From: Tridacna crocea
Lineage: Eukaryota; Mollusca; Bivalvia; Cardiida; Cardiidae
Assembly (NCBI GenBank): GCA_943736015.1
Contig: OX031057.1
Span: 42,370,501 to 42,434,500, forward strand
Direction of reading: 5' to 3'
Length of the DNA stretch: 64,000 nt
Below are positions 28,571-64,000 of this stretch, one piece after another; within the stretch, counting starts at the first letter, position 1; the number at the start of each line of letters is the position of its first letter. The notes under the pieces are model-generated. The model worked only from the letters and a program-made list of their open reading frames with translations, had not been told where the DNA came from and made no database searches. A program made the position numbers and the translations under genes.

Positions 28571-28635
28571 TTTATGGATTCTATGAGAAATTAATTACGT
28601 GACTTTGGACTGTGATATTTTGTGATCTGAACATT

Positions 28636-29454
28636 ATGGCTTTGTTAGGAGCTATTAATCCATTTGACATAGATAGGGACAACTGGACAGTATACCAAGA
28701 AAGGCTTGAACAATACCTCGCAGTCAATAATATCAGAAATGAAAAGAAAGTATCTGCTTCGTTAACTCTGTTAGGTGATAAAACGTATGCGCTAGTGAGG
28801 AATTTAACATCTCCGGAAAAGCCGGCAGAGAAGTCTTTTGATGAACTGTGTACAATATTGAGTCAGCATTTGTCTCCAAAGCCATTACTTATTGCAGAAA
28901 GGTTCAGGTTCCACAAAAGAAACCAGTTACAGAGTGAGTCCATCAGTGTTTTTATAGCAACATTAGGCAAAATGTCCAAACATTGTGAATTCGGAGGGTA
29001 CTTAGAGGACGCATTGAGGGACAGGTTTGTTTGCGGATTAAAGGACACAAACATCCAAAAGAAACTGCTATCCACTAAAGAATTAACCCTGATAAAGGCT
29101 ATAGAAATTGCAACCGCCATGGAAACTGCTATTAAAGATGCTGCAGAGTTAAGTAATACTACCAATTTGGGTACTGTCGAAAAAGTTTCTAAAAGAAAGA
29201 AACAAGAAAAATCAAAGAAGAAATTTCAACAGGATCGACAGAATTCAAGCCAATCAAGCTGTGACCACTGTGGGAAAAATAACCACAAATCGCAGAAGTG
29301 CAGATTGAAGAATGCCGCTTGTTACAAATGCAATAAAAAAGGACATATTGCTTCGATATGTAAAGCTGTCAACTGCATGGAAGAAAGCAGCAGCAATGAC
29401 ATTCTTTCTGTGCATTCTTTGAATACAAGTACGGTAAATCCAAAATCACTGTGA
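28636..29454 (+). CDS. gag: Gag polyprotein of the Gypsy element
   Basis: ATG at 28636 is taken as start (MALLGAINPF), giving 272 residues; the in-frame GTG 24 bases earlier is less likely. The N-terminal two thirds resemble a retrotransposon capsid (DNWTVYQERLEQYL, then DALRDRFVCGL). A lysine-rich linker follows, then two CCHC zinc knuckles at about residues 209-222 (CDHCGKNNHKSQKC) and 229-242 (CYKCNKKGHIASIC) for RNA binding. The frame is intact. It ends at TGA 29452-29454, two bases before the first pol ATG. Confidence 0.92.
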   Translation: MALLGAINPFDIDRDNWTVYQERLEQYLAVNNIRNEKKVSASLTLLGDKTYALVRNLTSPEKPAEKSFDELCTILSQHLSPKPLLIAERFRFHKRNQLQSESISVFIATLGKMSKHCEFGGYLEDALRDRFVCGLKDTNIQKKLLSTKELTLIKAIEIATAMETAIKDAAELSNTTNLGTVEKVSKRKKQEKSKKKFQQDRQNSSQSSCDHCGKNNHKSQKCRLKNAACYKCNKKGHIASICKAVNCMEESSSNDILSVHSLNTSTVNPKSL

Positions 29455-31196: not shown

Positions 31197-32569
31197 TGTT
31201 TTTTATACATCACAAATAGAGCAACTCCCTGTTACAAACGCTGATTTAGAAGGGAAACGCAGCGTGAAAACATTTTGTCACGTGTGCTTGAAAATGTCCA
31301 AAATGGATGGGGATCTCTCGTAGAAAATCCATTGTTGAAAGCGTTTCACAATCGCAGGAATGAATTATCAATACATAGAGGATGTATAATGTGGGGAATA
31401 CGTGTAGTTATACCTGTTAAACTACGTAGGCAAGTTTTAGATTTGTTACATGCAAGTCACCCTGGAATTGTTAAAATGAAATTACTTGCAAGAAGTTACG
31501 TATGGTGGCCTGGAATTGACAAAGATATTGAAAATTTGGTCAAACAATGCTCAGGTTGCCAAATGCAACAAAAAGAGCCCCAATCATGTAATTTACATCC
31601 ATGGGAATGGCCGAGTTCGCCATGGGAACGTATTCATGTTGACTTTGCAGGTCCGTTTTTGAATAAAATGTTCTTCGTCGTGGTAGATGCACATTCAAAG
31701 TGGCCCGAAGTTGTTATCATGAATTAAACTACACCCGAAAGATCAATTACAGAATTGAGAAATATTTTTGCTAGAAATGGATTGCCAAAACAATTAGTAT
31801 CAGACAATGGAGTTCAGTTTACTAGCGATGTATTTCAAAAATTCATGAAAGATAATGGAATCTTACATTTAAGATCCGCACCTTTCAAACCAAGTACAAA
31901 TGTTTAGCAGAAAGATTCATTGGCACATTTAAGTCTAGCATGCGAGCTATGACTATGTCTTCAAATGACTTGAATTTGAAAGTTAATACATTTTTGATAA
32001 GGTACCGTAATACGCCTCACGCTATTACAGGGGAATCTCCTTCAAAATTGTTTCTAGGTAGAAATCTCAGGACAAGGTTAGATTTGCTTAAACCTGATAC
32101 GAAACAAGTTGTTTCCAATTCGCAAATGAAATTAGCTTTAAATGATGACAGAAAGCTACGCGAGTTTGAAATAAGGGATAATGTATTGGCAAGGGATTAC
32201 AGAGCAAAGGGTAAATGGTTACCAGGTTCTATTGTATCTCGTGAAGGGCAAGTCATGTATAAAGTTGATGTAGGTAATAAGATCATTTTGAGATGACACA
32301 TAGACCAACTTAGACGGTCCGAGTTTTATGAAATTCCAACGCAGTCTTCTCACACTGATAATGTTTTACCTACACCACTCATGTCAAGTGAACAAATTCC
32401 AGAAACTGATAGTCAACCATCTAATGGCAATAATCCACTGCCATTATCTGAGAAAACTCATGAAAAGGACAGCACACCCATAATTACTAATTATGATAAT
32501 CAGGTGGACATCCCAAGTAGTGGTGATAAAAGATATCCCAGAGAGTACGAAAAGCTCCAGATAGGTTAA
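31197..32569 (+). pseudogene. pol: Pol, integrase part, interrupted
   Basis: Between 31190 and 31250 the coding frame changes and returns: frame-0 TGA codons at 31194 and 31242, while another frame is open between them. From 31275 the integrase is readable: the HHCC zinc finger (HASH, then CSGC at residues 92-95), YVWWPGID, and the first catalytic aspartate in HVDFAGPF. Breaks follow: in-frame TAA at 31725, a single-base frame change with TAG at 31905 just before the expected catalytic glutamate, and TGA at 32294. The frame from 31940 then stays open to 32569 as the integrase C-terminus. As read here the element could not make integrase itself. Confidence 0.88.
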
Positions 32570-46355: not shown

Positions 46356-46619
46356 CTACAGCTTATCGTCATGGTCTTTTACATAACACTGTCTGTCACA
46401 GCGACAGCTTTTGATCCACATCAATGCAAACATCTGTCGTCTACCGTCGCCACATTCGAACTCCACCCTCCGCCGTGTTTTTGTTCTTCTAGGATAACAA
46501 CATCTGGTCTTCTTACAGTTAGTGCAGAACTTAAAGTTCAGTTCTCTAACACTTACACAGTCCTCATACTTGATGCGCTTTCTCTGCTTTGTTCGTGTTG
46601 TTGGGGAGCATTTTCCATG
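46356..46619 (-). CDS. CCN: CCN exon 6: C-terminal cystine knot and stop
   Basis: Acceptor CTCTACAG precedes CATGGAAAATGC, phase 0. The 87 codons end at TAG 46358-46356. Ten cysteines have CT-module spacing: HGKC, EDC, FCTNC, RCC, FEC, SCRC and RQC. The stretch is strongly basic (KTRRRVEF, KQRKRIK), consistent with heparin binding in family members. The tail after the last cysteine is short (YVKDHDDKL). Confidence 0.94.
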   Translation of the reverse strand, partial: HGKCSPTTRTKQRKRIKYEDCVSVRELNFKFCTNCKKTRCCYPRRTKTRRRVEFECGDGRRQMFALMWIKSCRCDRQCYVKDHDDKL

Positions 46620-49600
46620 CTGTAGAGAGAAACAAAGGCAAGGGGCATTGCCGGAAACATCATGTGAAGCTTGTTTGACTGGAGATCATTGTCAACACCA
46701 ATTGATCCTTATCATGCTAACTAATTAAAATGAAATTTTCAATAATTCAATGACAAATGACAATATTTCAATGAAATATTGCTACTCTAAAGGTATGTTT
46801 TCAGAAATTAATTCTCCTATTCGGACAGTGAAGATCCAAGATCAGAGTACACATTGTGTGCAGTTTGATCTTCATCTACATTGTCTGCAAAAAGTCAATG
46901 AGTCACGCATTGCAGCCAAAGGATTAATCGCGGCGGCCAGTACACCAATTAACTCATTACCAAATGACAAAATTTTAAGATTGTCCAAATGGAAAGCATT
47001 TGCAGACAACAAAATAAAAGTGACAGAAAATTTGCAATTTGTTTTGTGAAGGGTAGAAAAGGAGAAAATGCTGGTTACCAGCATTTTCTCCTTTTCCCAC
47101 AATGTTTTCTTAAGGCTTCTTTCTTAGGGGAGTCAAAAGTAGAGATTGTGTGGTAATGGGTTAATCTATTACTGGAGTTTCTTTTACCAATACTTAGCAA
47201 CATATTTTTCTGAAGCCAACAGCTGCATTTCCTGATAACAAAATAATGATAAAATAGAGATGAGACATGAAAGATTCCATTCGCAATAACCAGGATCATT
47301 TATCGGAGTGACCTTGACTGAGCTAATGAACTGATCCAGCGACACCACCCCACCCTATTGTTTCAAGCCCAGTTTGATAACTCTTTACTAAAGGACGTAA
47401 TTTAACACTGCATGATCAAAACTGAGAGCATTTGCAGATGACAAAATGGATATCACTCAAAAATTGATTTGTTAAGGGAGGGCAGAAAACATTGTGGGAA
47501 AAGGAGAAAATGCTGGTTACCAGCATTTTCTCCTTTTCACATGATGTTTTCAAAAGTATTTTTTTTTTAGGGTCATGAAAACCAAGGATTGTTGGAGTTA
47601 ATGGCTTAGGTACTGGACACGAAGAGCCCAGTAGGCTGTCTGTAGCATACAAGACTTGAGAACATAAGGCCCGCTGGTTCTTTAACCCATTCGGAGAATT
47701 TCTTGGGTTGATGATAGTAATTGCATCAGGATTCTTTCATCCATCACCACTAATTGTTTCATCAATAGTTGTAAGGGAAAGCAGCCAAGGGCTCAATATT
47801 GCTCAAGAATGGCTAGATGCACTGGCATGTGCAACATACCTGACCTAATGTTGAATATGCCTACCAGGCTGGTAAATTTGGTTCATTTGAATATTAAGAA
47901 CGGCATTAAGCATCACACAAGGAAATGAAGAAAATAAAATCCAAAAAGAGCGGCAAACTGTCGCAAGATACGCCCGTCTTACCCCAAGTTGTAAAGCTGG
48001 GGCATGCACTGGACAAAATTCAAGTATGAAAAACAAAAATAAAGCGAGCAAGAGTTATGATTCCTGTGCACTGCACTCCCCCTTGATGAGATCTATCCAA
48101 CTATGAAATTTCATAACCCTAGCTAGTATAATTTTGGAGATATGCTCCGGACAAAATTCAAGTATGAAAAACAACAAAGGGCAATAACTCAAAAATTAAG
48201 TAAGCAAGGGTTATGATTCCTGTGCACTGCACTGCCCCTATGTGAGATGTATCCACCTATGAAATTTCATAACCCTAGCTAGTATAGTTTTGGAGATATG
48301 CTCCGGACAAAATTCAAGTATGAAAAACAACAAAGGGCAATAACTCAAAAATTAAGTGAGCTAGAGTTATGATTCCTGCGCATTGCACTACCCCTCGATG
48401 AGATCTATCCACCCATGAAATTTCATAACCCTAGGTAGTATAGTTTTGGAGATATGCTCCGGACAAAATTCAAGTATGAAAAACAACAAAGGGCAATAAC
48501 TCAAAAATTAAGCAAGCAAGAGTTATGATTCCTGAGCACTGCACTCCCCCTCGATGAGATGTATCCACCCATGAAATTTCATAACCCTAGCTAGAATAGT
48601 TTTGGAGATATGCTCCAGACAAAGAACTGGATGCCGCCCGCCCGCCCGGACGCCCGCCAGCCCACCCGCCCGCCCGCCCACCCGCCCGCCACGGGTGATC
48701 CCATAATACGTCCCGTCTTCGACGGGCGTATGAAAAGGCGTAAAACCTACTAAAATGAAATTTAAAAGAAACTAGATTTACCTTTGGTGCCAAGGTCACA
48801 TTACAAGGTCGTAGATAACAAAGCCTAATTTCCTCTCTTTGTTTACAGTATTTGTCCCTATATGTCCGCCTAGACACGCCCACATCGCAAGTTGTGGAGC
48901 ACTTGCTCCATTCTGAATAGTTCTGACTACATTCTGGCTGTGAGTTCTGATAGCTGTGAAGAGCCGCTGTAATAGATATAGAGCATATATTTTGTTTTTT
49001 CTTTGTTAAATATTGAAATTTATTTCATCGAGTGGACTTCATCGGTAATATTTCATGAGTGGTGTAGCCACAAGTAAAACCACAAGTGAAAATATCACTG
49101 ATGGTATTCACTCGATGAAATAAATTTCGAACTTTAACCACAAAAAAACCCCCAAATATTCTATTTACTTCATGCTTTTAACACTTTCTTGGAGGAACTT
49201 GATCAAATTCTAGTACAGTTCTTTTCAGTCATTCCCCATGGTGAACCGCATAGCGACACGTTACAATAAATTACATCAAGCTCAAGAAATGTTAAGGTAA
49301 ATGACTTCATATTTCCATCTGATTGTGAATCATGCACATTTTACCTAGGTAACTAGAAGATAAAATTCAGTATTTTCATTTACAAAATATTTCACTGCTA
49401 TTTCTTGATAACCTACTGGAAAGCATGAAATAAGATAATTTACCCACTTAGTCAAAAAGATGGGATAATAATGCATCTCAAAAGTACCGACCCATTTCAG
49501 CCTGTGCAGTCCACGCAGGCTGATCTGGGTTGAAACTTTTCGCTTTATAGAAATTTCCTGCCCTTTAGAGAACCATTCTACCTAATGATTATGTTGATTT

Positions 49601-52600
49601 TCTGACAATATTGATCCCCATCATATGAAGACTTGCTTGATATGATATATTGACTTAGGTGCATTCATTCACCTTTAGCCAGAGCCTTAACTCATTACCA
49701 AATGACAAATTTTAGGTTTGTCTAGATCAAAAGCATTTGCAGACGACAAAATAGAAATTACTCAACGTTTGAAATTTGTTTTGTGAAGGGTAGAAAACAT
49801 TGTGGGAAAAGGAGAAAATGCTGGTTACCAGCATTTTATCCTTTTCCCACAATGTTTTCAAAAGGATTCTTTCTCAGGGTCGTCAAAAGTAGGGGTTGTG
49901 TGGTAATCGGGTTAATTATTATATATTTGTTTATTTATTTATATCTCATAGATGTTTTTGTAAAACTGTTACAAGGAGAGTTATTATCTCTTATTTTCTA
50001 CCTTTCACAAATCAGATTTCTTTGTTGTTGGTGTTTTGAACTGCTGCTACAATGTTCTATGAATGACTCATTACATAAATGTTTTCACATTAATTAACCA
50101 TTTAAATTTACAATATCTTACATGGATGTTTTCTAGGTTGAAAACGTAAATCTAAAAATTACTTATCATCAATCATCAACTTGTTGCGCATTTTCATAGC
50201 AATATTAGGTATGTGATACAACCTCTGATATAGTAGTCTAGTACTGTCGAAACCCAGGAAAATATAAGTTCGTCAGCTGTCGCCCTGATATGACTGAAAT
50301 AATGTTTAAAGTGGTGTAAAACACCATTCAACCAACCAACCAACTGATAAAGTATTTAGAACAGATCCAAATGTGGACAAGGGAAGTAATTAATTTTGAG
50401 GAAAATCCACACGTAAGAAATGTTTATCTCCCCTGTTAATGGCTACTAAGTGAAGATCAAGATCAGGCTTCAAAAGGCTGAATTCCACTCTAAGATATAC
50501 ACTTTACGATAATTCGTAAAAGGTTGTTGACAAACAGCGTGAAAATGTAATAATTACTAGTTTTTCACCATCTTAGAAAATGTCTTTTCTTCTGAAAAAA
50601 GACCCAAATATTCGGCAGCGGTGTATTTTGTTCAAGACAAATGTGATAATTTTGCTTTTTGGCATTCTAAGGCAAAAACCCTTTAAAGTTTATACATACA
50701 TCTATGACGTGAATGGGCTGCTCTAAGTTCCATACTCTGTGGTCCAATTAGATGTCTCGGACTTTTGCCCGTGCCATATTCCAATCTTCTCGGTTCCATA
50801 TCACATGTCCATTGTTTACAACATTGTCCGGGTACAGACATCAGTCGAGGCTTCCTGCAATTCATTTGTTATTATCTAGCTTAACCCCTCACCAGATTTC
50901 AGAATTCTAAATTTGTCCAATTTGAATTGACTTGTACAGGACAAATTGAATGTTGCCTTATTGACAAGATTTGTCTAAGTAATGCAAGATGACGAAACTA
51001 GAGCTGTCACTGAATGTGACTTTTTACCCCTGCCAGCTCTTTGACAGTCTTTTGCACACAGACGGACACACGAACGGGCGGAAACACGGACAGACTGGCT
51101 GATTCCAGTATAACCCACGAAAACATTCGTTTTGCGGCGGTATAATAATACTAGCATTTTCTCCTTGTCCAAAAACATTTTCAGTTAACCCTTTATCACA
51201 CAATGACGACTTTTAACGCCCCTGAGGAAGAAGCCTTTTGAAAACATTGTGGGAAAAGGAGAAAATGCGGGTAACCAGCATTTTCTTCTTTTCCCACAAA
51301 GTTTTCTACCCCATCAAAGCAAAACTGCACCATTTGAGCCACTTTGAAATTATCTGCAATTACTTTCAATTTGGAGAGGTCTAAAATTTTGCTGTGTGGA
51401 AACGTGTTTAGCCTTATCCCAGATGGTTTAGCCAATCAGAATTTGTTATACTTTGAAATCAAGAGAATTCTTGACAATTAAGACTAAGAATACAAATAAG
51501 AATTGTTGGTGAATAAGAGCCTAGATTTACCGGCAGTGGGTTCTCGATGGTGTCCTGTACTCGTCCGGGCATAAATCAACACAGCCGTAGTTTCCATTCT
51601 GGCACGTACAGAGGCGGGAGCATTCTGGTTTGAATCTCTCTCCGTCTTTGTATTTCTTGCCGTTAACTTCACATGGTTTGGATTCTTTGGCTTGATAAAC
51701 GAAACATGCAAAGATGGATAAGTAAAATAGACATATGGATAAATGAAACAGGCATATAGAAGAAGTCAACTGCATTTAAATTACAAAAAGAGGAACAGTC
51801 GTTGATTTTATGATGAAAGTTCAGGATATGTGTTCCTTATATGCAAGTGATACTACCATAAAAGCTCTGCATGTTTTGGTTCAGCGAACCCACATAAAGT
51901 ATGAGTGCGACTCACGATACATTACACTACGGTCACAATGTGAACCTTCCGCCTGCCGATTTTCAGACATCGGTGGATTCTTAAGTTACATGCCACCGGC
52001 CGACTCTTTACAAATCGGTGCCAGTGGTCATAAATAACTACAAGTATATAAAAGGCCGCCTGACGGGTTCCCGGCGCCGCCAGGCAGTTTCATTAGTTCG
52101 ACGGTAGTGGTACGTCATCAGTGTGTTGGTCAGTTATGGGACAGGCCGGCAGCCGTCAGATTTTACCTGCCACCGCCCGGCGACCTCGCGGACACCGGCC
52201 ATTTACACGTGACACTGGCCGGCGATCGGGCATTCGAACTGCCACCGGCCGGCACCTGCCCAATAATCTGATGGCGACAGGCTGATTTACGGAGGATAAA
52301 TAAACCTACATTTCTCTTGTATGACTACAAAGTGTTCATTATTATGATAACCACAAGATAACTAGATATAATTTTTAATATTTTTTCCTTCCACAAGCTG
52401 TCCCCTAAAGGCAGTGGCAAGGGGAAGGACAAGGCGCCAGCATCGTAGCGCAAGAGACCAGAGCCCAAGCCCCTGCAATATGCAAGTCTCTGAGTCGCTC
52501 TGGTGCAATTAGAATCGCCATGAAGACTATTTTGTACGATGGATGGCCTTGGATTTATTTTCAGGGGCCCGGGAGGCTGCACTCGACAGATCGCTGTCCT

Positions 52601-55600
52601 GCTACCTACCAACACCGACAGTCGCCTCGTAGCTGCTTTTCAATCTCCTCCCTGCCGCCGGCAGATATTTTGAAATCGTACGGTGGCATATCAGTAGCAT
52701 AACGGCAGAAGGACGGATGCTGGAGAGTGGCAGTTAGTTCCTACCGATCGCCGGCCGAAGTTTGAAGGCCCCCGAACCGCAAGACCGAGTAAGGATCGCG
52801 CTGCAGCCCGTCTGCCACATGATAGCCACCGCGCGACTATGAAATGCGCCCGGCAGGGGCCTGACGACAGGCACAATTGGAAGAAATTGGCCTGTGGCAG
52901 ACAGAATTTTAACTTTTTCTTAAAACTTCAGCAGCGTCCTAGCGGCGTCTAAAATGCCGCCTGCCGATTGTGCCTGCCACCGGCCGAATTTGAGTTAAAA
53001 CTGGCAGTTACCACGCCTGCAGGCGACATTTACTTATTTGTGACCTTACTAACGTTATTAGCCAAGTCTTTAAAAAAATTGTTCCAATATTTGCACTATT
53101 CATATACTCGGTCTACTTCGAAACCTCGTAACTACGGCTTGTAATAGCTGTAGTTACGGGGTTTTCGAAGTAAACCACCGATGTATGCTTTCATGCGCCA
53201 AGTTTATTGTGCCGAGTACTCCCCTAACTTCCATTTTTTCACTGTTTGCTCTAACGACTAAAGCTATTAGATTGTCGACAAATTTTTGCACAAAAGTGGT
53301 CCGAATCTAGCAAGTAACATTGTCAATATTACCGACGATTATGTTCAAAGTATTTTTGGACAAAAGCAGTTTTTTTCACAAACAGATCTTTTGTCCACAT
53401 TTTTTTTCAGCGTGATCTTTACATTTATCCTTAACTGCAGAATCCTGAGTTTTAAGGACTCTCAGGAACAAAGCTTTTAACCTTCTACAACAAATCCTGA
53501 ATTAAAACGACCATGTAGAAGAAGATCTTTGAAAGCATTGTGGGAAAAGGAGAAAATTCTGGTTAAGGAGTTTTCTCATTTTCCCAAACGCCATAATTTA
53601 ACGAAGACAAAATTCATAATTCAAAGCACATTTTGCAAATTATTTCACTTTAGACATGTCTAAAATTTCGTGGTTTAGTAGAGAATAAAAAACATTAACA
53701 CAAAATGAGACATAGTGAATTATTACAATACATAGGTATCGATGAGCAATCAAATCTCCCATTACCTCTACATATTCCTGTACCGGGCCCCCGAATCTGA
53801 TTCATGTCACAATAGAGTCCTTGTTTGGTGTCACATACGTCCTTGACATTACACAGGTCACCATGTTGTCTTGCACACATGTAACAACAGTCACAGCCAT
53901 CTTTCAACGTTGAGATTCCCGGAGAGCACTTTAATTCTCGTACAGGACATTGACAAGGGTATTTACATCTCTGAAAATATACCAAAATCGACATGACTTT
54001 AGCTCTCGAAAGCAACAATCGAATATTTACATGTATAAGATCTGACGTTAAATTGGCATTTCAGATAGGCCTATATAGGATCTGACATGAGTCGGCTTTT
54101 GAGAGAAGATTTTATTAAACGAGTATAGGGAAATGTTATTAAGCGAGCCTTTGGCGAGCTTAATAATATTTTCCTGGACGCCCATAAATGTCAGATTCTT
54201 TTTATCACATAACGATATTTCACAAAATATAGATCAGATGATGAAAAAACATTCATGAATGCACTCGCGGTATTTTCCATGAGACCCATTCACTAGTATA
54301 AAATGCGTGCAAAATGACGTCACACAAATGTGATATAAATTATCAAATGTGTATATATACATAAGATATAGATTTTTCTTTTTTCGGTAAAAGATCGAAA
54401 TTTATTTCATGAAGTGAACACCATCAGTAATATTTTCACGAGTGGCGCAGCCACGAGTGAAAATATTACCGATGGTGTTCACGAGATGAAATAAATTTCG
54501 ATCTTTCACTGAAAAAAACAAATATTCTATTTATTTCATGCTTTTATCCCGTTCTGGGAGGAGCTTTATCAAATCCAGTACAGTTCTTTTCTGTTAAATT
54601 CCCCGTGGCGCACCCCTCCCGCATAGCAACATTACGTCAAGCGCGAGAAATGTAAGGTATATGACGTCATATTTCCCATCTAGTTGCGAGGCTCGCACAA
54701 TTTACCTAGGCAACAAGAATGTGAAAATCGGTATTTTCACTGGTCGTACAAGTGTAAGATCGAAAAATATATTCACTGCTATTTCTCGATATCCTACCGG
54801 AAAGCATGAGATAAAAGAAAATTCGTAATGGGTATATTACACTGAAAACAAGAGAGGTTATGTGATAAAAATTTTCATTAACACGACTAGAAAAATGTCA
54901 AGAATGGGTAGAAGAGTGAATTTTCATCTCTAACGCCAACGAATATCAGCTTCTTCTTTTTACCTCTTTACCAAAAGTTTAGACTGGTCCAAATTGAAAG
55001 CTCTTGCAAATGACAAAATGAATGTGACTCAAAAATTGAAACTTCTTGGGCTCAGGAAGAAAACATTGTGGGAAAAGGAGAAATTGCTATTTTCAGAAGG
55101 CTGCTTTCTCATGGTCGTGAAAGTCAGGAATTGTTTGATAAAGGGTTAACTTTACCATGAATTTTACAGAAACGATAGATCAAAATATGTGAAAGCATAG
55201 ACTACATTCACACGCAGGAATTTTCATGAATAAAATCTTATAGATCTATTCATTTTTTTTAAAGTTTTATCAAATGCTGTAACTTATGCCCTCAAATTAC
55301 GCTTGTCTCTAACGTTTGTTTGTAAGAAACAAAATTCGTTTTGTCTGTTTCTTAATTTACACTGAAAACGAGGAGATTTACATGATAAAATTTGGATCTT
55401 AAATATGAATGCTAATAGGATCGCGTTGCTGGACTTTACCACTACCAGATGACAACATTTTGGACTTTTCCCACTACCAGATGACAACATTTTGACTTTT
55501 TACCACTACCGGATGACAACATTTTGGACTTTTTACCACTACCAGATGACAACATTTTGGACTTTTTTACCACTACCAGATGACAACATTTTGGACTTTT

Positions 55601-58600
55601 ACCACTACCAGATGACAACATTTTGGACTATTCCCAAAATATACTATACAATGTTACCAGCATTTTCTCCTTTATCCACAAGTTCTTTCAAATCACTTTT
55701 TCTCCTGGATTATTAGACATTACGGATTGTTTGGTGAAACTTAAATGAAAGGCTAATGCTCCCTCTGTAGGTACTTAGAAATAAGATTGGAAATAGCTTT
55801 AACTTTTTAACTCTGTACCAAACGACAAAAGTTTAGACTTGTCCAAATTTAAAGCATCTGCAGACAACAAAAACGTAACTGAAAATTAATTTTTTCCCAG
55901 CAGGGTAGAAAACATCGTGGAGAAAATGTTGGTTACCAGCATTTCCTCCTTTTCCCACAATCTTTTCAAAAGACTTCTGTAATAGGGTCGTAAAAAGCCG
56001 CGATTGTTAAAGGGTTGACTGTATAATAAAGTAAACAAAGCTTTATATCTAGAAATGAAAGCCAAATATTGCGGTTTCATAGGTCTTTTCGATGGAAAAG
56101 TTCAATCATTTATGAGAGTGTAGGTCCAAGGCCGGAATGCACAGAACGTGCCGTCTGAAATTAGCCTACACTGCCAATGAAAAGTACTTTGAATCTCATA
56201 AGAAGCAAGTCTAAGGGTTAAACTGAAATTTAAAAGGCCATTATCAGATTCGATTTCACTTAATACGGTTTAGAAATATAATGAACATACGTTTGTAACA
56301 AACAACGTATTAGAGCGTGATGGATCACAGATTTATGTATCCATAATTGTGTGATGACTCTCTTGCTATAATGCAATAATGCAATACGGAAAAGTATGGA
56401 AACTCCTACCACAGCGTGCCCCGTTTATAATATTTTGTGAGAAAAGGCAAAAAAAAACCTAATTCAATGAAAACATTGATTGATATCAATATCGAAACTT
56501 GATATAGATTTGTATTAAGACTTTTGAACGTAGGAGATATTGATGTTCCAAATATTGATATAAATATTGATGTTGCAAGAGCTAAAGATAGAGGGAGTGA
56601 TTTTGATTTCAAAATTGAAAATATTCATGATTTCTCCACTAAACCCTATGTTATGGGTACTCATTAGAATCGTCTCATCGAGACGATTCTAATGAGTACC
56701 CACAACATAGGGTTTGAAAGAGAAGTAATTGATTTAGAATACCATTACTCCCTCTTATCTGGAGCTCTGTACAGTAACAGGACCATTATTGAAGTTTGGT
56801 AATATTATCCCTTTGCTTTGTAAGAGCAATGATTGCTACTGGGTAGATCAAGATAAGACTTTACAGAAGATGCAGTCTGATCAAGTACTCACATTTTTGA
56901 TAGCTTGTGAGATCATTCGGTCAAACAAAGCCCCATTAATTTTGATATCTTATTTAGGATCAAACCCTGGACCCCGTGTTCTCACGTCCTGCACGCTACC
57001 GTTTGAGCTACCGTGGCTCGGCAATATAAAAGGTACGGACTATTTTGACAACAAACGTTGCGAAAATCACATGCGCGGATCCAGATATCTTTCTCAAGGG
57101 GGGGTCCCACCGAAAACGCACTCGTCTTTTTATATGATACTTTGATTTCCGGATTTCAGTGGATGTAAGCCATTTACAAGAAAAGTCAACGTTTCCAGTT
57201 CTAACCATGAGGAGGTCTCCACATTTAGAACCCTTTTTTTTTTAATTTATGACTGTTTTTTACATAAATGCCGTGCAATATCAAACCAGTACCATTTCAC
57301 GAATCCAATAACCACATTTTTGCCAAAATTCCAGGGGGGGGGGGCCGGACCCCCGGTCCCCCCCTCTGGATCTGCCCATGAATCACATCCATTATGAATC
57401 AAAACAGAGATATCATCGTTCATTAAGAGATCTAAACATCCCTTGTCAATGTAACTTGAGACTTATTTCCGCAATATTGTTAGACTCGTGACATTTAATA
57501 GACATTACAGGAAATAAGATAGGTATAAAAGGCCTCATCGTTTTATCCCATTTATGTCGTGGATCTTATTTCAATAGAATTATCGTTGTGAAGTCCGGGT
57601 TTGAACGAATAGTACGGACAGATCTTTAGTCATTGACAGCTTAGTGTATGAAAGATAGGAACTGTGCTCCATGACAAGGGGGCTTGTTGCATCTGCAAAA
57701 AGTTTCGACCAGGTCAGCCTGCGCACTTCGCGCAGGCTGACCTGGGCCGAAACTTTTTGCTTGTTGTTTAATTTTTCGTATGTTAAAGGACCAGTTTACC
57801 TTGTGGTTAAGTCGGCTTTTAGACTAAATGGATTGATGACATGTTTTATAATATCATGCAACATGGAAATGCATTAAGCCCCCTTTTGTCAGAGCATGGC
57901 TCAATTATACTTTCATTTAGCAGGAAAAAAACCCATTTATAGTAAAGTGAGGGCTTGTTTCAGTACAATGGCCAACGCAGATCACTGATCATAATAGAAG
58001 TTTGTGAAGTATAATCTGAATCTACAATATTGGCAAAAATAACCACCGTAATCTTGGCATACGGGTACTATGATTCGAGATTTTGGAACACCGTTACTAT
58101 CAATACTGTACGGGTAACAAAGGCTCTCTGTTCGTAAGATTTTTCATGCCCTGATTTTTTTCTGTCAATCTCTTCGAGCTTAAAAGGGATTTTTACAATG
58201 AGTCGCTGAAAAGAGGCTGAGCTGGTCGATTCGTTGCTGAGAGAGTTATTCATGTATTCGTGGAGTTACTTCTGTCTTTGTTTCACTTCCAAATCGATAG
58301 GTGAGTGCAATACTATTATCTAAGTGCCTGTACGTTGTACAGGCACTTGGAATAGTATTGAACTCACCTATCCAAATGATTATTAATCTTTAGACTGTGC
58401 GGCTCAATGACCTTTTTGAGAGAGTGTAGATCAGAACGTGCATCTGATCTTTGATTTACACTGTCCGATAACGAATTGTCATTTCCCTAGACACAACTTT
58501 GAACTAGCAATACTTGGTTTTTTCAACTATTGAATTGGAAATTTCATTTTCCTTATTCAGTAGGATAAACGTTAAAGGTATAAACAATTTCAGGCATCTT

Positions 58601-59510
58601 CTGGCACACATCTTCGCAAGCCAAGGCCGACCATTCACTACATTACTCTACCCTTGGCGGATCGAGCTTGATTTTCACGTTCAGCCGATACGCTTTTTCA
58701 TTGGATGCAGCCAGCTGTAGCTGCAACGAATGAAATCGCTCGTAGCATTTCATCTTTGATAAAAATAGAACAACGTCTCTACCTTTCGAATAAAAGGTAA
58801 AACATTGAAACCCACGTGGATGCCTGCATATCGCTTCATGTGTATTCGTAAGCGATATTTGCTTATAGAAACATGATGTAAGGGGGGGGGGGGTAATAAC
58901 CAGCATCCAATGGAGGGCGCATCGCAGGAATCTCGAAATCGGGCTCAGTCAGCCAAGGTAAGATCCACGTAGTGATCGTAAACTTGGCTCGCGAAGATGC
59001 TGGCACAAGCAGTTTAATGTATCTCTGTGATGCATTATAACAAGCAAGTTATCCCACAATTATGGATCCACAAAATCCATTTGTTTAACAGCCGATTAAA
59101 TCATGGAGTAGAGTGGTTTTCGACATGCAGAAAATTGAATAGAAGCAAAAAGTTTCAAGACAGATCAGCCTTCGCTGATTGCGCAGGCTGACCTGTGTCA
59201 ATACTTTTTGGAAGATGCATTTACCTTTATTCATACTCGAGTATAATGCGGCCCATTATAACAGCTGATCGAAAGTTTATGAGTTATGAGCCCTAACTCA
59301 TCGGTAAATATCGTGTAATATCGACGGTTACGTACAGGGTATTCGGTCGATCTCGACAGCTTCCGTCTTTAAATATGAGAGTTAGAAGCCCTAGACCTAA
59401 AAAGGTTCAAAACAGTTTAAAGACAAACTCACCTGCCATCGCCTATGAAAACTTGTTACTCCACCAAAGAAAGCACAAATTACCAATAGAAATAACACTC
59501 TAATACCCAT
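46356..59510 (-). CDS. CCN: CCN-family matricellular protein (CYR61/CTGF/NOV-like), six coding exons
   Basis: Join of exons 59510-59433, 53970-53766, 51690-51531, 50854-50700, 48966-48782 and 46619-46356, read on the minus strand: 1047 nt, 348 residues plus TAG. Intron phases 0, 1, 2, 1 and 0 all match, and every intron is GT-AG. Domain order, with rough residues: signal peptide 1-20; IGFBP 28-93 with 12 cysteines and the diagnostic DGCDCCYMC motif; VWC 101-165 with 10 cysteines; TSP1 212-254 with 6 cysteines and WSKCSTTC; C-terminal cystine knot 265-339 with 10 cysteines. Vertebrate CCN proteins have this same four-module order and a length near 350 residues, so the gene looks full length. 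CCN proteins are secreted and bind integrins, heparan sulfate and growth factors in the matrix; that role is inferred from the family. The gene was assembled by eye from splice sites and cysteine spacing. Orthology to CCN1, 2 or 3 cannot be resolved here. Confidence 0.95.
46949..47164 (-). mobile_element. TTAA hairpin MITE in CCN intron 5, left outer arm deleted
   Basis: TTAACTCATTACCAAATGAC to GGTAATGGGTTAA, 216 bp. The 13-bp shortfall is a clean loss of the AACATTGTGGGAA part of the left arm (GTAGAAAAGGAGAAAATGCT). Confidence 0.82.
47376..47601 (-). mobile_element. TTAA hairpin MITE in CCN intron 5
   Basis: Left end ATAACTCTTTACTAAAGGAC; arms CATTGTGGGAAAAGGAG / CTCCTTTTCACATGATG; right end TTGTTGGAGTTAA. 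Confidence 0.72.
48090..48720. mobile_element. Tandem-monomer element, family F, with CCCGCC tail
   Basis: TTTTGGAGATATGCTCC recurs at 48137, 48292, 48448 and 48604, steps of 155-156 bp. Each unit contains AAAGGGCAATAACTCAAAAA and ACTCCCCCTCGATGAGAT. After the last unit comes a pure C/G tract (GCCCGCCCGCCCGGACGCCC..., 48634-48692), then CCCGTCTTCGACGGG, a perfect 15-bp palindrome. It ends about 60 bp from the donor of CCN exon 5. Confidence 0.75.
48782..48966 (-). CDS. CCN: CCN exon 5: TSP1 domain
   Basis: Acceptor CTATTACAG precedes CGGCTC (phase 1 in); donor GTAAAT at 48781 (phase 0 out). The translation includes PECSQNYSEWSKCSTTC, then YCKQREEIRLCYLRPC, matching the six-cysteine thrombospondin type 1 repeat of CCN proteins, including their RLC-x3-RPC ending. 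The exon is hemmed in: a tandem-monomer element ends about 60 bp downstream of the donor, and a hairpin element begins about 25-45 bp upstream of the acceptor. Confidence 0.94.
48990..49440 (+). mobile_element. Foldback element in CCN intron 4
   Basis: Hairpin TTGAAATTTATTTCATCGAG ... ATTCACTCGATGAAATAAAT, then the family body (GTACAGTTCTTTTCAGTC, TTTTACCTAGGTAAC) and the end CCTACTGGAAAGCATGAAAT. More diverged than the copy at 54378. Confidence 0.72.
49493..49553. repeat. Palindrome of the CAGCCTGCGCAGGCTG family, diverged
   Basis: ACCCATTTCAGCCTGTGCAG ... CACGCAGGCTGATCTGGGT. Better copies at 57695-57760 and 59146-59213. Confidence 0.6.
49687..49915 (-). mobile_element. TTAA hairpin MITE in CCN intron 4
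   Basis: 229 bp, TTAACTCATTACCAAATGAC to GGTAATCGGGTTAA. Arms CATTGTGGGAAAAGGAG / ATCCTTTTCCCACAATG, one mismatch. Confidence 0.85.
50245..50337 (+). repeat. SINE-like tail fragment
   Basis: TGACTGAAATAATGTTTAAA ... GTAAAACACCATTCAACCAA, with a terminal CAAC tandem. Sister of 1396-1502. Confidence 0.45.
50700..50854 (-). CDS. CCN: CCN exon 4: end of VWC domain and linker
   Basis: Acceptor TTGCAG precedes GAAGCCTCG, giving phase 2 in. The translation KPRLMSVPGQCCKQWTCD supplies the last three VWC cysteines (CC-x3-C), then a 34-residue basic linker with no cysteine. The donor GTATGT at 50699 was chosen because it is a strong match and leaves phase 1, which fits exon 5. Without splicing the frame runs only four more codons to a stop. 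The exact 3' boundary is the least certain in the gene. Confidence 0.87.
51001..51150 (-). repeat. Dispersed repeat, short copy
   Basis: AGCTGTCACTGAATGTGAC ... GATTCCAGTATAACCCAC; relative of 33715-34032, in CCN intron 3's downstream side (intron 4). Confidence 0.45.
51185..51411 (+). mobile_element. TTAA hairpin MITE immediately downstream of CCN exon 3 (intron 3)
   Basis: TTAACCCTTTATCACACAAT to TGTGTGGAAACGTGTTTA. Centre GGGTAACC; arms CATTGTGGGAAAAGGAG / TTCTTTTCCCACAAAG. Adjoins the GATTGGCTAAA-family fragment at 51411-51523; together they fill about half of the 676-bp intron. Confidence 0.75.
51411..51523. mobile_element. GATTGGCTAAA-family MITE fragment next to a splice donor
   Basis: GATGGTTTAGCCAATCAGAA ... 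AGACTAAGAATACAAATAAG, then TTGGTGAATAAGAGCC, the usual terminal block. The block ends around 51522; the exon 3 donor GT is at 51530-51529. Confidence 0.6.
51531..51690 (-). CDS. CCN: CCN exon 3: first part of the VWC domain
   Basis: Acceptor TTTATCAAG precedes CCAAAGAATCC; the exon is phase 1 in and phase 2 out, with donor GTAAAT at 51530. The translation AKESKPCEVNGKKY continues through PECSRLCTCQNG and YGCVDLCPD, the front part of a von Willebrand factor type C module (seven of its ten cysteines). The donor lies only about 8 bp from the end of a dispersed MITE fragment (51411-51523). An open frame extending upstream of the acceptor is intronic read-through, not coding. Confidence 0.93.
51930..53010. 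repeat. GC-rich repeat block in CCN intron 2
   Basis: Variants of GCCACCGGCCGGC and CGCCTGCCGATT recur at the start (51945-52030), middle (52140-52265) and end (52955-53000), in both orientations. Composition differs sharply from the AT-rich surroundings. Frames here are not supported as coding. A dispersed element with subterminal GCCRCCGGCC motifs is the simplest reading. Confidence 0.5.
53475..53690 (+). mobile_element. MITE remnant beside CCN exon 2
   Basis: TTTTAACCTTCTACAACAAA; AGCATTGTGGGAAAAGGAGA; end GTGGTTTAGTAGAGAATAA. Right arm decayed. It stops about 75 bp from the exon 2 donor. Confidence 0.5.
53766..53970 (-). CDS. CCN: CCN exon 2: IGFBP-like N-terminal domain
   Basis: Acceptor TATTTTCAG precedes AGATGT; donor GTAATG follows at 53765. 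The 205 nt are phase 0 in and phase 1 out. The translation opens RCKYPCQCP and contains DGCDCCYMCARQHGD followed by C-x5-C-x7-C spacing, ending GPGTGICR. All 12 cysteines expected of the CCN IGFBP module are present. The family's usual GCGCC core reads GCDCC here, a conservative variation. Confidence 0.95.
54120..54180. repeat. Short palindrome
   Basis: AATGTTATTAAGCGAGCC ... GGCGAGCTTAATAATATT, 15-16 bp arms, in CCN intron 1. Confidence 0.5.
54378..54825 (+). mobile_element. Foldback element in CCN intron 1, best copy
   Basis: Hairpin 54387-54506 with 50-bp-class arms (GATCGAAATTTATTTCAT; GTAATATTTTCACGAGTGG mirrored by CCACGAGTGAAAATATTAC), then CCGTGGCGCACCCCTC, AATTTACCTAGGCAAC and the end ATATCCTACCGGAAAGCATG. 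Non-coding. Confidence 0.8.
54958..55149 (-). mobile_element. MITE remnant without right arm
   Basis: ACCTCTTTACCAAAAGTTTA start; left arm CATTGTGGGAAAAGGAGAAA present, then jumps to TTTTCAGAAGGCTGC; end TTTGATAAAGGGTTAA. Confidence 0.65.
55431..55741 (-). repeat. Minisatellite grown from a MITE end
   Basis: Six units of about 31-33 bp (ACCACTACCAGATGACAACA + TTTTGGACTTTT) run from 55431 to 55633. They are followed by the rest of a MITE (TTACCAGCATTTTCTCCTTT, GGATTGTTTGGTGAAA). The unit is the MITE's own terminal TTTACCAAATGACAAAATTTTGGACT segment. Frames of ~70 codons here are repeat artefacts. Confidence 0.8.
55806..56020 (-). mobile_element. TTAA hairpin MITE, shortened
   Basis: TAACTCTGTACCAAACGAC; left arm cut to CATCGTGGAGAAAATG; right arm CTCCTTTTCCCACAATC; end GATTGTTAAAGGGTTGA. 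Confidence 0.65.
56641..56715. repeat. Near-perfect 75-bp palindrome
   Basis: AAACCCTATGTTATGGGTAC ... GAATCGTCTC, 3-bp loop ATC, then GAGACGATTC ... GTACCCACAACATAGGGTTT. 36-bp arms with one mismatch. No other copy noticed in the window. Confidence 0.85.
56957..57020 (-). repeat. tRNA-derived SINE head
   Basis: Minus strand: A-box GGTAGCTCAAACGGTAGCG (57012-56994) and B-box CCAGGGTTTGATCC (56970-56957). Overlaps a 118-codon plus-strand frame, which is therefore not credited. Confidence 0.55.
57695..57760. repeat. Palindrome GCAAAAAGTTTCG...CAGCCTGCGCA
   Basis: GCAAAAAGTTTCGACCAGGT ... ACCTGGGCCGAAACTTTTTGC with GCGCACTTCGCGC-type centre; about 30-bp arms with two or three mismatches. Confidence 0.75.
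58296..58372. repeat. 77-bp palindrome ending in AGGTGAG/CTCACCT
   Basis: GATAGGTGAGTGCAATACTA ... GTGCCTGTAC GT TGTACAGGCAC ... TAGTATTGAACTCACCTATC; arms about 37 bp with a few mismatches. In CCN intron 1. Confidence 0.8.
58613..59001. mobile_element. Element with TCTTCGCAAGCCAAG terminal inverted repeats
   Basis: Left CATCTTCGCAAGCCAAG, right CTTGGCTCGCGAAGATG; inside the right end GATCCACGTAGTGATCGTAA. A G10 run lies at 58883-58892. The arms equal those of the compact palindrome at 42503-42585. Confidence 0.65.
59146..59213. repeat. Palindrome of the CAGCCTGCGCAGGCTG family
   Basis: CAAAAAGTTTCAAGACAGAT ... AGGCTGACCTGTGTCAATAC ... TTTTTG; lies about 220 bp inside intron 1 from exon 1. 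Confidence 0.65.
59433..59510 (-). CDS. CCN: CCN exon 1: start codon and signal peptide
   Basis: The 26 codons start at ATG 59510-59508. They give a short basic N-terminus, a hydrophobic core (VLFLLVICAFFGG) and a probable signal-peptidase site after VTS, then FHRRWQ. The exon ends at CAG followed by donor GTGAGT (59432-59427), phase 0. Vertebrate CCN genes likewise have a small first exon holding only the secretion signal. The first intron that follows is the longest, 5462 nt, and is full of palindromic repeats. Confidence 0.9.
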
Positions 59511-59699
59511 CTTTTTATCAGTAATTTTTCTTTTTTAAAAAAATCCAAGTTTACTCTTTCAAAACAGAATTTCTTATTGTTCAAGAAATCTTGTAAATGC
59601 ATCGACAGAGAAACATTTGTATGCTATGAGGTAGTAGACAACACACCCTTTGAATAAGCAAAATTCAATTTCAAATCCACTCTCATTGTTCGTTACACA

Positions 59700-59800
59700 T
59701 AAATCAAAGCTATATACTTTTTTGTGATTCAGAACCCCACACGTGACGAGTAATTTCTTCCTCCAGCAAACCCATTCCTTTTTCTACATTTACACAATTA
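59700..59800 (-). promoter_or_regulatory. CCN: Putative CCN core promoter: TATA motif, E-box, TEAD/M-CAT motif
   Basis: Read on the minus strand, a TATATA motif (59716-59711) lies about 200 bp upstream of the ATG, a CACGTG E-box is at 59745-59740, and a TEAD-type CATTCCT (M-CAT, plus-strand reading) is at 59773-59779. Vertebrate CCN1 and CCN2 are classic YAP/TEAD targets with such sites in their proximal promoters. The motifs are seen; promoter function is inferred. The space is bounded upstream by a MITE starting at 59801. Confidence 0.4.
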
Positions 59801-60031
59801 TTAACCCTAAACCACACAATCCCACGGTTTAAGGACCCTCAATGTTAAGGCTTTTGAAAACAGTATGAAAAATGGAGAAAATGCTGGTTACCAGCATTTT
59901 CTCCATTTTCCACACTGTTTTGTACTCTTTTAGCCACATTTTCTAACGTTTGAGCCACATTTAGTTTGTCCTCTGACAAATGCTTTCAGTTTGGACAACT
60001 CTAAAAATTTCGTCGTCAAGGAAAAGATTAA
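59801..60031 (+). mobile_element. TTAA hairpin MITE abutting the CCN promoter
   Basis: TTAACCCTAAACCACACAAT to GGAAAAGATTAAA. Both arms show a shared change: AAAATGGAG on the left and CTCCATTTT on the right, where the main subtype has AAAAGGAG/CTCCTTTT. It begins about 290 bp upstream of the CCN ATG. Confidence 0.78.
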
Positions 60032-60734
60032 ATCCTTATTCACATTAATTGTTCGTGTCCTATAGGGGTAACGCAACCCTTTTGCAATTACGCAGTCTCC
60101 ATAGATCAAGATGAGACTGCAGAGAACGTGCAGTATGGTTTTGGCTCTAAACTATCCTCTCATTTAGCCGACCATAATTATTGATTAAAGACCATCATCT
60201 CAAGCTAGATGGCATTCTACAAATACTCATCTAATATGGGCATTCTGGGTACAGAACTGGACTACTTTTCGACGCGATAACCGTTACTTTGAATTTCAAT
60301 CCAAAATGCACGTTTACTAAATAAAACTCTGTCTGGTGCAATCCATGCAGCTATGATCTGTTAAAGCATGTAACCTATGCACCAACCATTTATTAAAACA
60401 GCCCCACAGGCTTTGATAACAGCTCCGGTGTAAGCCCTACTTTTCCCTAGTAATTGGGGGTGGTGAAGCGTCACAGCAGACAGGTCGAATCTTCGAAGTG
60501 TATGACATGCGTAGACAGCGAATTAAAGACAGTACGAGTTCCAGTGAATTGTATTTTCAGCCGCCTAAAGAAGTAGACTTTATATACTTTGAATTGAAAC
60601 AAGGATAGTATATGAAAAATCTTTCTTGCATATGTTGGCCGAAGGCCTAAAATACGTTATAAAACATCAGCGCGGTCCGTTCCTTCACTTACTTCATTAA
60701 GGAAATAAGTTGAGTCTGACCATTTATGGTTAAT
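60032..60734. other. No gene recognised upstream of CCN
   Basis: A degraded GATCAAGATGAGACTGCAGAG palindrome lies at about 60103-60165. Otherwise no frame, repeat or splice-flanked exon stands out. Confidence 0.45.
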
Positions 60735-61165
60735 CGTTTGTCCTATACTTCATGCTTTCCGTTAGTTTATCTGGAAATATCGGCGAGATGGTTTTCGATA
60801 TTTCATGGTTACGACCTGTGAAAATACCGTATCTAGGACAATTGCTCCCCTGACAATTGCCCCCGGACTATTGCCCCCTCGTGGACAATTCCTATTGAAG
60901 GCGGAAGCAGTTGTTCCCGCGCACTGCTTACCTAGGTAAAATGTGTGCCTCACAATCAGGTGGAAATATGACGTAATTCACCGTACATTTCTCGCGCTTG
61001 ACGTATTCTGGTAATGCGATTCTATGCGGTGAGGGTACGCCACGGGGAATATCTGAAAGAAAAGAACTGTACTGGATTATTTTTCGAGCGGGTCGTGAAA
61101 ATATTACCGATGATGTTCACTCGATGAAATAAATTTCGATCTTTCACCGTAAAAAAAAAAAACAA
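60735..61165 (-). mobile_element. Foldback element, hairpin half-deleted, with insertion
   Basis: Ends CATGCTTTCCGTTAG and GATGAAATAAATTTCGATCT match the family, but only one hairpin arm remains (61090-61147). A local tandem of GACAATTGCYCCC-type units (60838-60895) sits inside, absent from the other copies. Confidence 0.65.
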
Positions 61166-61517
61166 ATATTCTTCGATATAAAATGTACACCACGTTCCCT
61201 TCTAATTAATTCACAAATAAGAGTCACTTATTCCTGACATAAAGCGCTTTGATATGCTTTCTTTACATCGAACTTTACATACTGATAGAAAACTTGTAAT
61301 TCGTGTTAAAAAGAGTTGTTCAATATTTATAAAGAAACATGCTATCCGTATTAAATAAAGTAATTCAATGATCAATGAATACTTGTTATTCGTGTCTTGC
61401 ATAGACCGTTATTCAACGTAAATTATGTGATCAAAATAACGTTTCGTTTCATTAGACAAACTCATAAGGAAGAGAGTTCATCCTTAGGATGCTAGGCGCG
61501 ACCCAAGGAACTTTTGT

Positions 61518-61581
61518 GGACAGGTAGATCAAGATCAGACTGCACGGAACATGCAGTCTGATCTTGGATCTACACCGTCCG
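61518..61581. repeat. Palindrome GATCAAGATCAGACTGCA, best copy
   Basis: GGACAGGTAGATCAAGATCA GACTGCA ... TGCAGTC TGATCTTGGATCTACACCGTCC; arms about 29 bp. Confidence 0.75.
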
Positions 61582-61618
61582 ATAAGAAGAAATTTTGATT
61601 TAAAAAAAAAAAAATCTT

Positions 61619-61847
61619 TTAACCCATTACTACACAATCCCTACTTTTGACGCCCTTGAGAAAGACGCCTTTAGAAAACATTGTGGGAAAAGGAGAAAAT
61701 GCTGGAAACCAGCATTTTCTCCTTTTCCCACAATGTTTTCTACCCTTCACAAATCAGATTTTAGATTTTCAGTCACTTTTATTTTGTCGTCTGCAAACAC
61801 TTTAGATTTGGGCAAACATAAAATTTTGTTGTTTGGTAATGAGTTAA
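61619..61847 (+). mobile_element. TTAA hairpin MITE, intact
   Basis: 229 bp, TTAACCCATTACTACACAAT to GGTAATGAGTTAA. Arms CATTGTGGGAAAAGGAGAAA / TTTCTCCTTTTCCCACAATG perfect; centre GGAAACC. Confidence 0.87.
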
Positions 61848-62123
61848 AGAGCAACATTTGAGTTTTTAATTTATATCAGCTTGAAAGTTACATTAAATTC
61901 ATTTATTAGGTTAAGAGTTTGATCTACGTAATACGAAATGTATTCCGCAGAGGCTTGCCTAGTATATGAATCATTTCATCTTTTTAAGCCCAGCATTACA
62001 TTTCCAATTTTTTAATTCAAACATTTTTCTTAAATAAACCGTTAAAATGAAAGTGAGCGTAGATCAAAGACGCAGACTTAATATTCTGAGTAGTTAGATT
62101 TCGATCTACACTGTCCACAAACA

Positions 62124-62350
62124 TTACCACACAATCCCCATGATCCCGAGTTTTAACGACGCTGAAGAAAGAGCCTTTAGAAAACATTTTGGGAAAAGGA
62201 GAAAATGCTGGTAACCAGCACTTTCTCCTTTTCCCACAAGGTTTTCTATCCTCCCCAAAACAAAATTTCAATGTTTTAACCAAATTTATTTTGTCGTCTG
62301 CAAATGGTTTCAATTCGGAAAAGTCTACAATTTTGTCGTTTGGTAAAGGA
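62124..62350 (+). mobile_element. TTAA hairpin MITE, ends without TTAA
   Basis: ATTACCACACAATCCCCATG with a small local insertion, to GTCGTTTGGTAAAGGA. Arms CATTTTGGGAAAAGGAG / CTCCTTTTCCCACAAGG. A 113-codon plus frame and a 135-codon minus frame cross it and are repeat artefacts. Confidence 0.75.
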
Positions 62351-62601
62351 AAAATAATCAAAGCACTGAAAGCACTTGGGTCTTGGGCAAGTAAAAAGAG
62401 CATACGAGCTCGTATATGGTGCAAAGCAATTTGTATTCAATCATTAACTATCCACTTAAAAAGAAAAAAAAAGAACATGTGGATGCCAATGGTCGGCTAC
62501 AGTGGCTTTAAGCGAAAAATATTAAGATGAAAAGCCATGCATTACTGTGTCAAACGTATTTAGAATGTTTACCTGCCCCTGGTTTATGGGTTGCCTTACA
62601 A

Positions 62602-62915
62602 TAAATGAAAAATAGCCCAATAATGAATTAAATAGAGGATATTCAACTGGTTATTTTTTATATGAAAAATATCTCACGAGGATGCGTGGTTAGGCGTTGA
62701 AAAAAACGAGTGCGCAGTAAATGAAAAATAGCCCAATAATGAATTAAATAGAGGATAATCAACTGGTTATTTTTTATATGAAAAATATCTCACGAGGATG
62801 CGTTGTTAGGCGTTGAAAAAAACGAGTGCGCAGCACGAGTTTTTTTTAAACAACTTACGACGCATCCGAGTGAGATATTTTTCATATAAAAAATAAACAG
62901 TTGATTATTCTAATT
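62602..62915. repeat. 116-bp tandem duplication plus inverted third copy
   Basis: Units 62602-62717 and 62718-62833 are nearly identical (TAAATGAAAAATAGCCCAAT ... AACGAGTGCGCAG). From 62834 the sequence reads back: GCACGAGTTTTTTTT ... GACGCATCCGAGTGAGATATTTTTCATATAAAAAATAA. It is a foldback element with one arm doubled. Confidence 0.8.
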
Positions 62916-62925
62916 ATTATATACC

Positions 62926-64000
62926 TTATTAACATTATTATTTTTACTTTTTCGTTTGAAAGTCAAAATCAATACTTTGGATAGAGAGAAGAAATCAGCG
63001 ACATAGTGCGGATGAATACAAGAACAAAACGAGACTTCACAAAACTTACAATTAACAGTATCTATAAGTGCTTAATGAAAAAAAAGGAGTTCCTAAATAT
63101 CGGCAGGAAGTGAAAGTGAAAATTGATATCGTCACTAGTGATGATATCAAAATTTGTTACACTTGGAAATTCCAGGATTTCTCTGCTATGTATATAATAA
63201 ATATGATGATCATCAATTACTTCAAGCATGAAGTTAATTTCTTCCTTAATGACAGTAATGGCAAAGATATAATAAGATATCAAAATACTTGAACACTCAA
63301 AGTTAAAAAAAGGACATTAATAAACGTTTGAAAAATGCTTTGATAGATACCTGTCCCTTTTGAATGGGTTTCCCTTTTGACAGCTAACACCAGCCCCAGT
63401 TTGAAGTAAATATCTTGATTAATAACAGATATATTACAGCCTTATCTCTTGCAAAGTCTTCTTCTGTTTTTTGCTTACTTGAGTATGTTCAGGTTTTCCC
63501 AATTTCATTGTCAAATAATTAAAGTGTAAACAAGGGTTTACATCGTATCTTGAAATCCATTCTGGTTCAACCCAGTCTGTTCCGGTCCATTCCGGAATTT
63601 CCATACACCAAGAAAACACCTCTGCTCCACTCGTACATGTCTTACGGCTGACAAGTTAATGGATTTTGTCTTTTTACACACCATGCGTAGATGCACTAAA
63701 TACAAGATTTATAAATCAAATGTCGATTTCGCCACGTTCCATCTGCATCAAAAGGTTTGCATACAGCGAATAGCTAAGGTGAACATGGGTGTTGGTTGTG
63801 TCATACTCTGCTTGTGTAGTTTAAAAGTTTGAAATTAACGGGAGAATTTCTCTCCGTTTACAGCATTCTCATTTAAAATTTATCACGCCAACAAACACCG
63901 TTAAAAACGTTTGCTTTGAATACAATTTTCTTTGGCATTTTCTCGGTAAATGTATACACCGGACCATCTTTCAATTTCTATTTTACATCACGGATGAATA
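62926..64000. other. No gene recognised
   Basis: AT-rich. A segment near 63550-63600 has a TTCYGG-type run (TCTGTTCCGGTCCATTCCGG) that translates to Trp-rich peptides in both directions and looks like a degenerate tandem. No splice-flanked frame. Confidence 0.4.

Follow-up and report, generated by a model that had tools for sequence, protein, structure and literature searches.

According to the available sections of PMC6610741, vertebrate CCN genes are built of five exons: the signal peptide has an exon of its own and so does each module, the VWC exon measuring 252 bp and the TSP1 exon 212 bp. The same sections give eight exons for the CCN genes of ascidian and fly, so departures from the vertebrate exon count are known outside vertebrates, and they report one CCN homolog in the oyster (Crassostrea gigas). 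For clams, the accessible part of PMC5712350 describes seven genes that were raised in the gills of fast-growing Ruditapes decussatus and resemble five zebrafish proteins. Of these five, three belong to the CCN family. The name NOV-like is given to two of the seven clam genes. No paper on the CCN family in Tridacna was found in a literature search, most subscription journals being outside its scope. The window analysed here, a 64-kb stretch of giant clam DNA taken in its whole length, carries a gene that is, judged from its sequence, a member of the CCN (CYR61/CTGF/NOV) family and an ordinary form of this known animal family.

The gene lies on the minus strand, and its six exons run from 59510 down to 46356 (Table 1). 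The span given in the first-pass annotation was exact, the first base of the ATG being 59510 and the last base of the stop codon 46356. Relocating and joining the exons confirmed that they connect in matching phases into 348 residues, encoded by 1047 nt including the stop codon. All five introns are of the GT-AG type, with phases 0, 1, 2, 1 and 0 and sizes of 5462, 2075, 676, 1733 and 2162 bases in gene order. In introns 2 and 4 the donor agrees with the consensus at only 6 of 9 positions. An intron precedes each of the IGFBP, VWC, TSP1 and CT modules, and one extra intron lies inside VWC. When bases were shuffled within exons, none of 2000 shuffles retained an open frame. Intron 3 (from 51530 downwards) and intron 5 (from 48781 downwards) share their first ten bases, GTAAATCTAG, which is probably a coincidence.

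Table 1. Positions in the window of the CCN gene parts, of a candidate polyadenylation signal and of repeats and mobile-element pieces
Feature	Position	Strand	Description
Exon 1	59433..59510	-	Start codon and predicted signal peptide, residues 1-26; donor CAG/GTGAGT, 9/9 consensus
Exon 2	53766..53970	-	IGFBP module, 12 cysteines, residues 27-95; Pfam IGFBP 37.6 bits (cut-off 28)
Exon 3	51531..51690	-	VWC module, first part, residues 95-148
Exon 4	50700..50854	-	Remainder of VWC module and hinge, residues 148-200
Exon 5	48782..48966	-	TSP1 module, 6 cysteines, residues 200-261; TSP1_CCN 49.7 bits (cut-off 27)
Exon 6	46356..46619	-	CT cystine-knot module, 10 cysteines, stop codon, residues 262-348; Cys_knot 26.7 bits in exon 6 alone (cut-off 24)
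Candidate polyadenylation signal AATAAA	45686..45691	-	664 bases past the stop codon; pattern match only
Palindrome GGAGAAAATGCTGGTTACCAGCATTTTCTCC, examples	47061-47091, 47503-47533, 59874-59904		
Retroelement pieces	28603-32293	+	gag/pol type, in separate frames
G+C-rich stretch in intron 2	51931-53045		Roughly 1.1 kb; boundaries GGTCACAA and TTGTGACC, identified by eye
Tandem array in intron 5	48034-48690		156-base unit, 3.8 copies, 92% matches

The first-pass annotation had also stated that no single frame in this span exceeds 110 codons. This is correct for ATG-started frames, the longest of which has 99 codons, but not for stop-to-stop frames, which reach 145, 135, 123 and 121 codons. 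The TSP1 exon is contained in the 145-codon frame and the IGFBP exon in the 121-codon frame. Frames of 121 to 145 codons say little by themselves, because Markov shuffling of the window, done 20 times, gave longest frames of 118 to 195 codons. The window has 34 stop-to-stop frames of at least 100 codons, three of which contain CCN exons. Seven non-CCN frames (131 to 598 aa) were scanned against Pfam; three matched retroelement families and four had no match. The claim that this is the sole supportable host gene in the 64 kb was checked only as far as these seven frames go.

Three Pfam families, IGFBP, VWC and TSP1_CCN, exceeded their cut-offs in the joined protein, with VWC reaching 29.7 bits across exons 3 and 4 (cut-off 27.6). 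Cys_knot was absent from the joined-protein listing at E ≤ 0.1 and exceeded its curated cut-off when exon 6 was scanned alone; in the full-length Mercenaria relative it scored 24.9 bits. The IGFBP, VWC, TSP1 and CT modules are present in the order of the family, CT being recovered only via exon 6 alone. A scan of NCBIfam, a library for prokaryotes, gave no match. The 38 cysteines of the CCN modules (12, 10, 6 and 10 across IGFBP, VWC, TSP1 and CT) were all present, as had been claimed, and one more in the signal peptide brings the joined protein to 39.

The protein search returned 44 homologs at E ≤ 0.001 among 234 candidates. Alignment to CCN families had been proposed as a check on the model, and its outcome was clear: CCN family member 1-like isoform X2 of Mercenaria mercenaria (P0001) matched best, with 59% identity over 99% of the query (E = 5.4e-133). 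CCN family member 2-like of Ruditapes philippinarum (P0005) followed with 56% identity over 98% of the query, and further identities were 55% for Mactra, 54% for Dreissena and for Mya, 52% for the freshwater mussel Potamilus, 48% for scallop and 46% for pearl oyster. The names "1-like", "2-like", "3-like" and "5-like" would reflect the best vertebrate match of each protein, not one-to-one kinship. The Mactra homolog is named a Tigger element protein by its source, which is presumably a mislabel. For some close relatives the source is a contig of 1 to 2.4 kb in which the whole frame is uninterrupted, and from the contig size we infer that these are spliced transcripts of other animals.

Eighteen of the 44 relatives were aligned with the window protein. 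All 38 module cysteines were in register in 16 of the 18; in P0023, 37 were aligned with one gap, and in P0034, which ends early, 32 were aligned with six gaps. The residues flanking junctions 2 and 3 aligned well with the relatives. Insertions and deletions occur at junction 4, in the hinge, and at junction 5, directly ahead of CT; they lie in the variable linkers that precede TSP1 and CT. The gene is complete, as described earlier, having all four CCN modules and six coding exons, and around its junctions the joined protein aligned with full-length relatives. In the 19-row tree, the window protein was placed, to fork level only, inside a ten-row fork with support of 99/97 that includes Mercenaria, Ruditapes, Mactra, Dreissena and Mya; long branches were flagged elsewhere in this tree.

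Comparison of the window with itself (blastn, E ≤ 1e-5, matches of at least 40 bases) marked 39% of all bases as repeats. Repeats covered 36% of the 12,108 intron bases of the CCN gene and none of its 1047 exon bases. These percentages are lower bounds, since only repeats with a second copy in the window were counted. The gene had been described as hidden in repeat-rich DNA. The repeat content bears this out, but it is not unusual: the available text of PMC11700175 gives 67-69% repeats in three giant clams and 38% in cockle, so that a gene amid repeats is expected.

Copies of the near-perfect 31-base palindrome GGAGAAAATGCTGGTTACCAGCATTTTCTCC, with at most three mismatches, were located at 25 places in the 64 kb, from 5175 to 62228. 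The search gave 49 rows over both strands and none in 100 shuffles. The CCN introns contain five of the copies, and the exons are free of them. The palindrome resembles the core of a hairpin-type mobile element, one that is very abundant. Among the retroelement pieces on the plus strand are a zinc knuckle, an integrase H2C2 domain and a reverse transcriptase accompanied by RNase H and a sub-threshold aspartyl protease match. The G+C-rich stretch in intron 2 is perhaps a non-autonomous DNA transposon. In intron 5, a CCGC-type simple repeat follows the tandem array.

The genome searched comprised 1,048,827,098 bases in 31 contigs. IGFBP was detected at four places (five candidates scored), Cys_knot at two places (seven candidates scored) and TSP1_CCN at five places among the 150 of 251 candidates that were scored. 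The search with the joined protein at E ≤ 1 gave 15 places, six of which were its own exons, and the next best had E = 0.014. No second CCN locus was detected in these whole-genome module and joined-protein searches, and no two places with different modules outside the CCN locus were less than 7.6 Mb apart. Exon 6 itself was absent from the genome-wide Cys_knot listing; searches of this kind can therefore miss a CT exon. For this reason, and because the searches score only the best candidates, exon by exon, a very divergent second gene could escape. Within this scope, the window gene appears to be the sole CCN gene of the giant clam genome. The mitochondrial contig of this genome has 29,009 bases, against 24.95 kb in T. 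derasa and 25.34 kb in T. gigas as given in the part of the published record available. Its COX1 shares 94% identity with COX1 of Tridacna derasa and 80% with Lymnocardiinae, which places the host among the giant clams.

As candidates for a second copy, frames covering nine further IGFBP, Cys_knot and TSP1 places were read, and in none of them did another CCN module share the frame. When the joined protein was compared with nine loci by tblastn, L003 gave a weak match to residues 3-96 (E = 1.1e-4), and its frame contains one IGFBP-like domain. A single IGFBP domain preceded by a hydrophobic stretch was observed in the frames at 1417-1836 of L003, 1399-1848 of L002 and 1354-1782 of L004, which look like small secreted IGFBP-domain proteins. 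An upstream duplicate was sought by tblastn in L028 and L029 (20 kb, about 4 kb of it shared with the window), where the best match had E = 2.1.

Exon 1 is the least conserved part of the gene, with one to eight residues identical to each of the 18 relatives. Signal peptides diverge, and the low conservation is attributed to this. The ATG is followed by a hydrophobic run with a 10-residue mean hydropathy of 3.42, predicting an N-terminal signal peptide. It is unlikely, but worth considering, that the CCN gene is real and its model partly wrong, with another first exon, 5' non-coding exons or alternative isoforms: exon 1 sits 5.5 kb upstream and is unconserved, and the source names of several clam relatives contain "isoform". 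However, when the minus strand of 53971-64000 was scanned for an ATG start, hydrophobic residues, phase 0 and a good donor, exon 1 with its full-consensus donor was the sole candidate, and the same scan on 100 shuffled copies gave a mean of 0.22 candidates.

The repeat-rich surroundings and one extra arginine codon in CT, relative to all 18 aligned relatives, could also be read as signs of a recently silenced CCN gene whose exons are intact and whose transcription is lost. This is highly improbable, as the frame is open, the splice sites and the 38 module cysteines are all retained, and no other CCN locus was found in the genome as a replacement. The only point in favor of a chance assembly of unrelated short frames is that no long single frame is present. 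That explanation has a negligible probability and is already refuted by modules that exceed their cut-offs in family order and by the match to a clam CCN protein over nearly the full length; the 2000 shuffles, the four Pfam families and the 44 homologs together exclude it. The window gene is almost certainly a giant clam CCN (CYR61/CTGF/NOV-type) gene that is intact and most likely functional. This reading is supported by the GT-AG introns, the open frame, the four Pfam families, the homologs, the aligned cysteines, the single candidate for exon 1, repeats that occupy introns and spare exons, and the CCN-like genes raised in fast-growing clams. Counted against it are the two 6/9 donors, the lack of a Cys_knot listing in the joined-protein and genome-wide searches, and the poor identity of exon 1.

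The encoded protein is predicted to be secreted and matricellular, based on its CCN family membership and signal peptide. By analogy with the family, it would be exported, disulfide-bonded and retained in the pericellular matrix, where its modules and basic CT knot may bind growth factors, integrins and heparan sulfate. Such binding would tune growth, adhesion and repair. Support for a growth role of CCN proteins in clams is correlative and comes from gill expression in another clam, Ruditapes decussatus. That the gene has taken on a lineage-specific role in growth, be it of mantle, shell or symbiont-bearing tissue, is quite improbable; its being the only copy found is all that speaks for it.

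The window gene leaves the knowledge of CCN proteins unchanged. A checked model of what is apparently the only CCN gene of a giant clam will aid annotation and comparisons of growth-related gene families among molluscs. The case also shows that a correct reading of a spliced gene with six exons is possible from raw, repeat-rich sequence.

Compared with its closest relatives, the window protein has the same four modules in the same order as P0001 of Mercenaria, with 38 of 38 module cysteines shared, and the same four modules as P0005 of Ruditapes philippinarum. It differs from both in the signal peptide, the hinge, the C-terminal tail and the extra CT arginine, which is the window protein's own. 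Vertebrate CCN1 to CCN6 have the same modules; identity to the vertebrate proteins is 35-38%, and the three that were aligned carry all 38 cysteines. Sequence matches were also obtained to two solved chains, the CCN3 VWC (5nb8) and CCN3 TSP1 (6rk1) modules. VWC occupies one exon in vertebrates, whereas in the window gene it is split at residue 148, just past cysteine 147, and this intron accounts for the count of six exons. The TSP1 exon has 185 bases, shorter than that of vertebrates. Mammals have six CCN loci; in the giant clam one was found, the same number as the single homolog reported for the oyster.
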